DNA from: Fibrobacter sp.
Lineage (GTDB): Bacteria > Fibrobacterota > Chitinivibrionia > Chitinivibrionales > Chitinispirillaceae
DNA length: 34,207 bases
Direction of reading: 5' to 3'
Assembly: GCA_012728995.1 (NCBI GenBank)
Contig: JAAYEB010000153.1
Coordinates: 1 to 34,207, forward strand
The notes beneath the pieces are model-generated. The model was given only the letters and a program-made list of their open reading frames with translations. It had not been told where the DNA came from and did not search any database. Positions 28,338 to 29,855 of the stretch are shown one piece after another. How positions within the stretch are numbered: position 1 is the stretch's first letter; each line of letters starts with the position of its first letter. The position numbers were made by a program, and so were the translations under genes.

Positions 28338-28366
28338 AAAAAAAGCCCGCTCTTTGGAGCGGGCTT
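28338..28366 (-). terminator. trp attenuator intrinsic terminator
   Basis: Read on the minus strand, AAGCCCGCTC / GAGCGGGCTT forms a ten-base GC-rich stem (28357-28366 with 28343-28352) with the four-base loop CAAA, followed by seven Ts. It is the strongest intrinsic terminator in the window and lies 33 bases after the leader-peptide stop codon, well before trpE. Confidence 0.93.
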
Positions 28367-28447
28367 GCAATTTTTTCTATTTAAACATCAGAAAAGGATT
28401 ATGATAGCACCGCTCGGTTAATAAAGCTTCGCCACCAAAAAGCAATC
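28343..28447 (-). promoter_or_regulatory. Tryptophan transcription attenuator: alternative RNA stems 1:2, 2:3 and 3:4
   Basis: Segment 1, GATTGCTTTTTGGT (28434-28447), covers the first Trp codon. It can pair with segment 2, ACCGAGCGGTGCTATC (28403-28418), through GAU/AUC, GC/GC and UUGGU/ACCGA. Segment 2 can instead pair through GAGCGG (28410-28415) and GCT (28406-28408) with AGC-CCGCTC of segment 3 (28357-28365), with one bulged base. Segment 3 otherwise pairs with segment 4 to make the terminator. A ribosome stalled at the Trp codons would cover segment 1, freeing 2 to block the terminator. This is the logic known from the E. coli trp operon. The pairings were found by eye, with no energies computed. 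An extra eight-base pair (28387-28394 with 28455-28462) also exists. Confidence 0.85.
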
Positions 28448-28479
28448 TTTCTTATTTCTGATTTATATACCAAGTTCAT
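28399..28479 (-). CDS. trpL: trp operon leader peptide with tandem Trp codons
   Basis: A 26-codon frame starts at ATG 28477-28479 with AGGAG (28486-28490) six bases upstream, and ends in TAA. Codons 15 and 16 are both TGG in the context AFWWRSF. Tryptophan is rare, so an adjacent pair in a tiny, well-initiated frame just ahead of a terminator and trpE is the hallmark of a ribosome-stalling leader peptide. Its translation, not its product, is expected to matter: low charged tRNA-Trp would stall the ribosome and allow transcription into trpEGCF. The region upstream (28500-28530) is AT-rich with TATATAAC and GATATATT stretches that may contain the promoter, though no clear -35 is seen. The gene is below usual annotation length limits. 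Confidence 0.9.
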   Translation of the reverse strand: MNLVYKSEIRKIAFWWRSFINRAVLS

Positions 28480-28637
28480 ATTTATCTCCTGTTTAATTCA
28501 AAATATATCTGTTATATAAACATGAAAAGAGTTTTTTAAGAAAATTAACCAAACTGCCCGATTCTGGATTACAAACTGTGGAACCCAAAACCACACAGAT
28601 CTTTTTGGGAAGGGGGTAAAAGGCAGATTTTGTATAT

Positions 28638-29855
28638 CTAAACATTTTTTTTCAATCGCTCTCTTAATCTCTTATCCAGCTCAAACAATTCTGATTCCGA
28701 ATCAGCAGTGATAAAAAATGCGTTTCGCAGAGGTTTACTCCATTTATTATTGAAATAAACTTCAAGAGGGCTAACCAACATAATACCTGTTTTTGTTACC
28801 GGATTATATTCCTCTTCCCCAAGCATTTCACTCAAACTATCATAATTATCCGGTACTTTCCCTTTTTTTCTGCTTATGAACCGGAAAAAACAGTGTTTTC
28901 CCTGTGCGCAGGAATTCTTTAACTCAAAAACGATATCAGACATGACATGACGAGCGTTGATTTCGATAACAGAAGCAATCTTGTAGCATCCAGTCAGATG
29001 ATCTTTGTATACAAAAGAGTCCAGGCCAGCAGGCCCCCAGTATCCCTGAGAATACAGCTCTTTTGAAACAATCAGTGCTGTATCTTCAAGAACTTTTTCA
29101 TACTGTTTCAATACCGGGTCCAGTGGAGAGAGATAAATGCCATAAAATGCGCCGAATGTATTTACACACGATCTCAAATGACGAATCAGTGATACAGAAC
29201 CATCATGACCGATTTCTACTCTTGTAGATAAATCACAAACACGCTCATACCATGGTTCAACCACATAGCCACCATGTTTCGATAAAAAAGAGATATCACA
29301 GAAATATTCCTCTGCCTGATCCAAAGATTTAATTTGCCTGAATCCAAAACCGGAGCCACCATATGCGGGCTTGATAACAAGAGGAAATTTATTACTGAGA
29401 GAAGATACTATCTTTGTGTAATCTGCCAGATCGCGCGAAAACTTTGATCCACCAACTCCCCACTCATACTTTTTTGCGAGATAGTTGCTAAAACAGCGGG
29501 AATTTACTTTTTCAACGATCCCGGTATCGGGATGAAAACAACTGGCACCGGCTTGCTTTAATAAGCAAAGGGATTTTTCGTTCCATCCCCATGCTTCTCC
29601 TTTGAACCTGTTGTTACAATTTACCTTTTCGGTAACAGGAAACGGCTGCGGTGTACTCAATCCACATGCGTCGAGATATTTCCAGTAATTATCATGAACA
29701 TCTATTCCCATCAGTATTCGATCCTGCCTGGAACCAAGCGGTGCAAAAAGCACTGTCATCTCTGCACTGGCCTGTTCCACTTTCTGAGAAGAAAACTTAC
29801 CCAGTTCAAGATCGAAAAGGGAGTTAAAATAAAATATTCTGTTCAATTCACACAT
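28638..29855 (-). CDS. ATP-grasp domain protein of unknown substrate, downstream of valS
   Basis: The 405-residue protein has ATP-grasp hallmarks: the nucleotide loop VIKPAYGGSGFGF (160-172), the adenine-hinge strand VVEPW (198-202), and the Mg-binding tail GPAGLDSFVYKD (274-285) with VIEINARHVMSD (296-307), where the E.N.R residues coordinate metal and phosphate. The N-terminal 130 residues contain a pre-ATP-grasp-like region with FAPLGSRQDRILMG, and the last 60 residues are unlike anything I recognise. ATP-grasp enzymes ligate a carboxylate to an amine or thiol through an acyl-phosphate, so a peptide or amino-acid ligase is plausible but unproven. It begins 28 bases after valS, with GAGGTGAT rather far (about 12 bases) from the ATG, and is probably cotranscribed. 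The trp leader lies 160 bases beyond its stop. Confidence 0.85.
   Translation of the reverse strand: MCELNRIFYFNSLFDLELGKFSSQKVEQASAEMTVLFAPLGSRQDRILMGIDVHDNYWKYLDACGLSTPQPFPVTEKVNCNNRFKGEAWGWNEKSLCLLKQAGASCFHPDTGIVEKVNSRCFSNYLAKKYEWGVGGSKFSRDLADYTKIVSSLSNKFPLVIKPAYGGSGFGFRQIKSLDQAEEYFCDISFLSKHGGYVVEPWYERVCDLSTRVEIGHDGSVSLIRHLRSCVNTFGAFYGIYLSPLDPVLKQYEKVLEDTALIVSKELYSQGYWGPAGLDSFVYKDHLTGCYKIASVIEINARHVMSDIVFELKNSCAQGKHCFFRFISRKKGKVPDNYDSLSEMLGEEEYNPVTKTGIMLVSPLEVYFNNKWSKPLRNAFFITADSESELFELDKRLRERLKKNV

Follow-up and report, generated by a model that had tools for sequence, protein, structure and literature searches.

A probable ribosome-mediated trp attenuator upstream of trpEGCF in a member of the Fibrobacterota, and related elements elsewhere in the phylum

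The trpEGCF locus and its upstream region

The window, that is the whole 34,207-nucleotide stretch analysed here (contig JAAYEB010000153.1), carries four tryptophan biosynthesis genes in a row. All are assigned from protein family models, and the gene named trpE in a preliminary description of this DNA indeed scores as such.

28116–26641, minus strand: trpE, anthranilate synthase component I, GTG start (TIGR00564, 567.9 bits versus a cut-off of 517.7)
26620–26018, minus strand: trpG, glutamine amidotransferase component (TIGR00566, above cut-off)
26064–25255, minus strand: trpC, indole-3-glycerol-phosphate synthase (NF001377, above cut-off)
25258–24629, minus strand: trpF, phosphoribosylanthranilate isomerase (NF002298, above cut-off)

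TrpE of the window is 61–70% identical to most of its same-family relatives, and in several of these either valS or the gene preceding trpE apparently holds its position. For these two reasons the contig does not look foreign. The gene between valS and trpE (28638–29855, minus strand) encodes 405 amino acids without a Pfam match at E 0.001, and its position is apparently kept in several relatives. In five loci of the same order (L012, L016, L017, L020 and L023) the gene ahead of trpE ends like ValS as judged by eye; in these loci trpE and the valyl-tRNA synthetase gene may share a transcript.

The intergenic region between the 405-residue gene and trpE contains the following elements.

28490–28486, minus strand: Shine–Dalgarno sequence AGGAG, 6 nt 5′ of the leader ATG (sequence)
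28479–28399, minus strand: leader peptide frame MNLVYKSEIRKIAFWWRSFINRAVLS, 26 codons plus TAA (sequence and translation)
28437–28432, minus strand: regulatory codons TGG TGG, the adjacent Trp codons 15 and 16 (sequence)
28424–28437, minus strand: segment 1, TGGTGGCG plus GCTT; overlaps the Trp codons and is the partner of segment 2 in the minimum-energy fold
28402–28415, minus strand: segment 2, GAGCGGTGCTATCA; partner of segment 1, or of segment 3 via GAGCGG.GCT (folds and duplex energies)
28357–28366, minus strand: segment 3, AAGCCCGCTC, the 5′ arm of the terminator (terminator scan and folding)
28338–28352, minus strand: segment 4, GAGCGGGCTT, the 3′ arm, plus the T-tract with seven T in all (terminator scan)

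The start of the leader reads AGGAG-ATAAAT-ATG on the minus strand, and its TAA follows immediately past segment 2. Both the stop codon and the Trp codons are placed where an attenuation mechanism needs them. The terminator, AAGCCCGCTC CAAA GAGCGGGCTT followed by T7 (28366–28338, minus strand), has a 10 bp stem with seven GC pairs and a loop of four, and is the strongest terminator-like site in the region. As is typical of this class of element, the trp operon is preceded by a short frame that has adjacent Trp codons and its own ribosome site, and an intrinsic terminator with a T-tract stands ahead of the first structural gene. The candidate promoter of the leader is weak (TTTTCA-N17-TATTTT), and about 220 nt separate the terminator from trpE. 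Every part listed in the preliminary description, from the leader frame, ribosome site and WW codons 15–16 to the segments and the 10 bp, seven-T terminator, is present in the sequence on the minus strand.

The trpBA and trpD genes of the same genome, located on other contigs, have no such leader, and a second attenuator was not found. Loose pattern searches gave matches at chance level only, the reversed pattern returning similar numbers. One suggestive match in the same genome (contig C107, L039) was rejected as it looks like a piece of a longer coding region.

Predicted folds and chance expectation

The predicted energies are −13.7 kcal/mol for the 1:2 helix, −16.2 kcal/mol for 2:3 (with segment 1 masked) and −18.2 kcal/mol for 3:4. 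The three helices are mutually exclusive in the 1:2, 2:3, 3:4 sense, with the Trp codons within segment 1, and the predicted minimum-energy fold combines 1:2 with 3:4, i.e. the terminated state. Folding of the 171 nt region is 3.6 standard deviations below that of dinucleotide shuffles. The 2:3 duplex (−15.3 kcal/mol) was matched in none of 2000 shuffles (mean −6.1, s.d. 1.8). RNA folding, proposed as a check in the preliminary description, agrees with its reading.

Chance occurrence was estimated from 20,000 dinucleotide shuffles of the 521 nt intergenic region. A comparable terminator appeared once and a WW leader with a Shine–Dalgarno sequence 46 times, while leader and terminator together appeared in none.

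Comparison with known systems

No Rfam family reaches its threshold in the window, in agreement with the earlier statement that the element was unlabelled. The Trp_leader model RF00513 reaches 34.3 bits across its full length (E of 3.6e-5 in 701 bases), below its gathering score of 41, and Leu_leader scores 34.5 bits, below 50. RF01692 (Bacteroid-trp, gathering score 49) finds nothing in the window at E 10 or in 168 Fibrobacterota genomes at E 0.01, the T-box model RF00230 has no covariance-model match in the window and eleven related loci are likewise without an Rfam match at threshold.

The closest likeness is to the trp attenuator of E. coli and other Proteobacteria (RF00513), which shares the WW leader, the Trp codons inside segment 1, the 1:2/2:3/3:4 alternatives and the location before trpE. 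Even the terminator, AGCCCGC...GCGGGCT in those organisms, has nearly the same sequence. The E. coli trp leader has 14 codons, making the 26-codon leader of the window the longer of the two. Unlike in E. coli, the stop codon in the window follows segment 2 rather than falling between segments 1 and 2, and the distance of about 220 nt to trpE and the phylum also set it apart from the Proteobacterial attenuators. Fibrobacterota belong to the FCB group, as do Bacteroidetes, and Bacteroid-trp resembles the window element in placing a Trp leader peptide before trp genes; it was described in Bacteroidetes in 2010 (PMC2864571). Actinobacterial attenuators, known from Corynebacterium and Streptomyces, also combine a double or triple UGG leader with an antiterminator and a GC-rich terminator ahead of trp genes, but their helices have different conserved triplets and the phylum is unrelated (PMC1262725). 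A 2010 survey gave leader-peptide systems as known only in Proteobacteria and Actinobacteria, to which it added Firmicutes (PMC2965389).

Since it has been described in Actinobacteria and Bacteroidetes, trp attenuation is a known kind of control. A search of the accessible literature on Fibrobacter leader peptides found nothing on point, and Fibrobacterota are new to this kind of control as far as Rfam and that literature extend. The preliminary description considered attenuation to be best described in Proteobacteria and an example from another phylum to be informative. The phylum is indeed without a label, although the Actinobacterial and Bacteroidetes systems narrow the novelty. What is gained is an extension of classical leader-peptide attenuation, with all of its parts visible, to Fibrobacterota.

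Distribution in Fibrobacterota

A beta-glucanase from a genome of the same phylum (G050) aligns with PDB entry 1mve over 242 residues with few differences. Entry 1mve is the Fibrobacter succinogenes enzyme, and on the strength of this match the phylum is Fibrobacterota and its large family f8 is Fibrobacteraceae. The window belongs to a different order from that of Fibrobacteraceae.

Within the order of the window, the WW frame and terminator are absent from about 30 trpE upstream regions (families f1–f7). The conservation which the preliminary description proposed to look for thus fails among these relatives, the closest of which come from genera other than that of the window. Elsewhere in the phylum, similar elements are common. 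Leader, 2:3 helix and terminator occur together in two genomes from other families: G043 (L031) with the WWW leader MKTSNNKVLMWWWQGNITSLERAFIAN, and G041 (L032) with a WW leader in a GTG-started frame containing ...RPWWRWCRTCLGRETV. Both terminators are of the ACCCGCT...AGCGGGT type and the 2:3 helices have energies of −17 to −19 kcal/mol. Relative to the window, the substitutions in these terminators are matched on both arms (GCCC:GGGC to ACCC:GGGT and CTC:GAG to CTT:AAG).

WW or WWW leaders with terminators are present at 65 loci of Fibrobacteraceae and family f12, examples being MMNFVTTATLNRRWWRGL, MKIINALTVAFDGRWWRGL and MNFICTNNNWWWQTQ. The three helices are predicted in 15 loci of this set that were checked individually, and their sequences differ between lineages. 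The automated choice of terminator fell on the 1:2 hairpin in L142, L144 and L159; L142 and L144 were reassigned on individual folding. In the Fibrobacteraceae alignment, which represents a different sequence subfamily from that of the window, 91% of the cells are paired in the 2:3 helix, compared with 17–58% after a shift of the pairing by one to three columns. Compensating U-A/C-G changes are also seen in 2:3, and shuffle support for these counts is modest. Fibrobacter gives weak mononucleotide-shuffle P values, as one position of segment 2 is mismatched to segment 3, and the covariation of the 1:2 hairpin on the MAFFT alignment is blurred by a register shift. The attenuation logic thus appears to persist while helix sequences change between lineages.

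The main trpE of f11, of f14 and of most of genus g34 has no leader element. In one f11 genome (G160, contig C18, L157) a second, divergent trpE copy has the WWW leader MNGNFRKVWWWRLP, and the main trpE of that genome is without one. Two loci from f8 genera g33 and g36 (L131 and L134) have WWW leaders and a second type of terminator, ACCGCGG...TGCGGT; judged from sequence, the helices there have been replaced while the predicted logic is kept. In many Fibrobacter loci of genus g24 (L163–L206) interrupted T-tracts follow the terminator, for example CTTTCTCT and CCTTCCTT; measured against E. coli, such intrinsic terminators would be weak.

The distance from terminator to trpE is mostly 80–190 nt in Fibrobacter and about 20–190 nt across the phylum loci examined. 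The gap in the window, earlier called unusually far, is correctly given as about 220 nt and is long, but lies just beyond this range.

Proposed mechanism and alternatives

In our view, the trpEGCF operon is very probably controlled here by ribosome-mediated transcription attenuation of the E. coli type. RNA polymerase would transcribe the leader and a ribosome would start at the ATG led by the Shine–Dalgarno sequence. With charged tRNA-Trp plentiful, the ribosome would read past codons 15–16 as far as the stop codon where segment 2 ends, covering this segment, such that segments 3 and 4 would pair and transcription would stop at the T-tract near 28338. With charged tRNA-Trp scarce, it would stall on the two Trp codons within segment 1, leaving segment 2 free to pair with segment 3; no terminator would then form and trpE would be transcribed. 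Transcription start, leader translation, stalling and termination at this site are what we infer.

The attenuator reading is supported by the anatomy, by its improbability by chance, by the predicted exclusive helices and by recurrence before trpE in other Fibrobacterota. Weighing against it are the absence from other genomes of the same order, the weak candidate promoter, the modest covariation counts of the Fibrobacteraceae alignment, with its different sequence subfamily, and the long gap. The last of these would suit a hairpin that does no more than terminate the upstream gene (28638–29855, on the valS side) at its 3′ end, the WW frame being incidental and the trpE promoter lying inside the 220 nt gap. 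The upstream gene has the same direction, and relatives of the same order without the leader often have a short gap between upstream gene and trpE. However, chance would not be expected to yield a Shine–Dalgarno-led frame with adjacent Trp codons together with the 2:3 complementarity. The arrangement also recurs before trpE in other Fibrobacterota families, often with gaps of 80–190 nt; we regard this explanation as improbable.

The absence from some 30 same-order regions could also mean that an ancestral attenuator is decaying here and has lost control of trpE. Yet every part is intact (an open frame, the Shine–Dalgarno sequence, a perfect 10 bp stem, seven T and a strong 2:3 helix), which makes a remnant less probable still. 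Another tryptophan-sensing leader, be it a T-box, TRAP or a trp riboswitch-like RNA, has nothing specific in its favour beyond a weak RF04312 (trpB motif) score of 22.5 versus a threshold of 59. With no Rfam family at threshold in the window, and with the WW leader and overlapping helices accounting for the region, its probability is close to negligible. The preliminary reading as an E. coli-type Trp-sensing attenuator agrees with all of the sequence tests, and counterparts exist within the phylum. The trp attenuator of the window is very probably functional and ordinary in mechanism.

Predicted leaderless leaders

In the related loci L141–L153 and L158–L210 the leader starts 6–9 nt past the −10 box of a TTGCCA/TTGACA-N17-TAnnnT promoter, which is a consensus reading and not a mapped start. 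A scripted scan found this spacing in 63 of 66 loci; in the remaining three an in-frame ATG follows a TATCTT box at a distance of 7 nt. With the start codon at the expected transcription start there is no room for a Shine–Dalgarno sequence, and the leader mRNAs of Fibrobacteraceae and f12 are predicted to be leaderless. The trpL attenuator of Sinorhizobium meliloti, which is reported to have a leaderless leader mRNA (PMC7298713), resembles these predicted versions and differs from the window, which belongs to another phylum and has a Shine–Dalgarno sequence and a predicted 5′ UTR. The leader of the window has AGGAG and no TTGCCA/TTGACA-N17-TAnnnT promoter at 6–9 nt spacing.

On balance we favour the view that Fibrobacterota have their own family of trp attenuators, leaderless in Fibrobacteraceae and two other families, of which the lineage of the window kept or regained the Shine–Dalgarno form and the rest of the sampled order is without. 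If true, these lineages would form a natural series in which to study the coupling between attenuation and a leaderless ribosome start. The predicted leaderless leader peptides span Fibrobacter, a rumen cellulose-degrading genus, and this wider leaderless family is a better lead than the window element. The patchy distribution, with the element lost or replaced in the order of the window, offers a case in which to study the turnover of amino acid control.

Leaders also occur among the named TrpE relatives outside the phylum. A Saprospiraceae genome matches Bacteroid-trp, and one Bacteroidetes genome (L046) and one Melioribacteraceae genome (L051) have WWW leaders and strong terminators. These two leaders, about 106 and 134 nt before the trpE match, respectively, have no Rfam label at E 0.01, and their terminators are nearly identical: AAACCC(T/C)TCTTAGTATCACTGAGA(A/G)GGGTTT.
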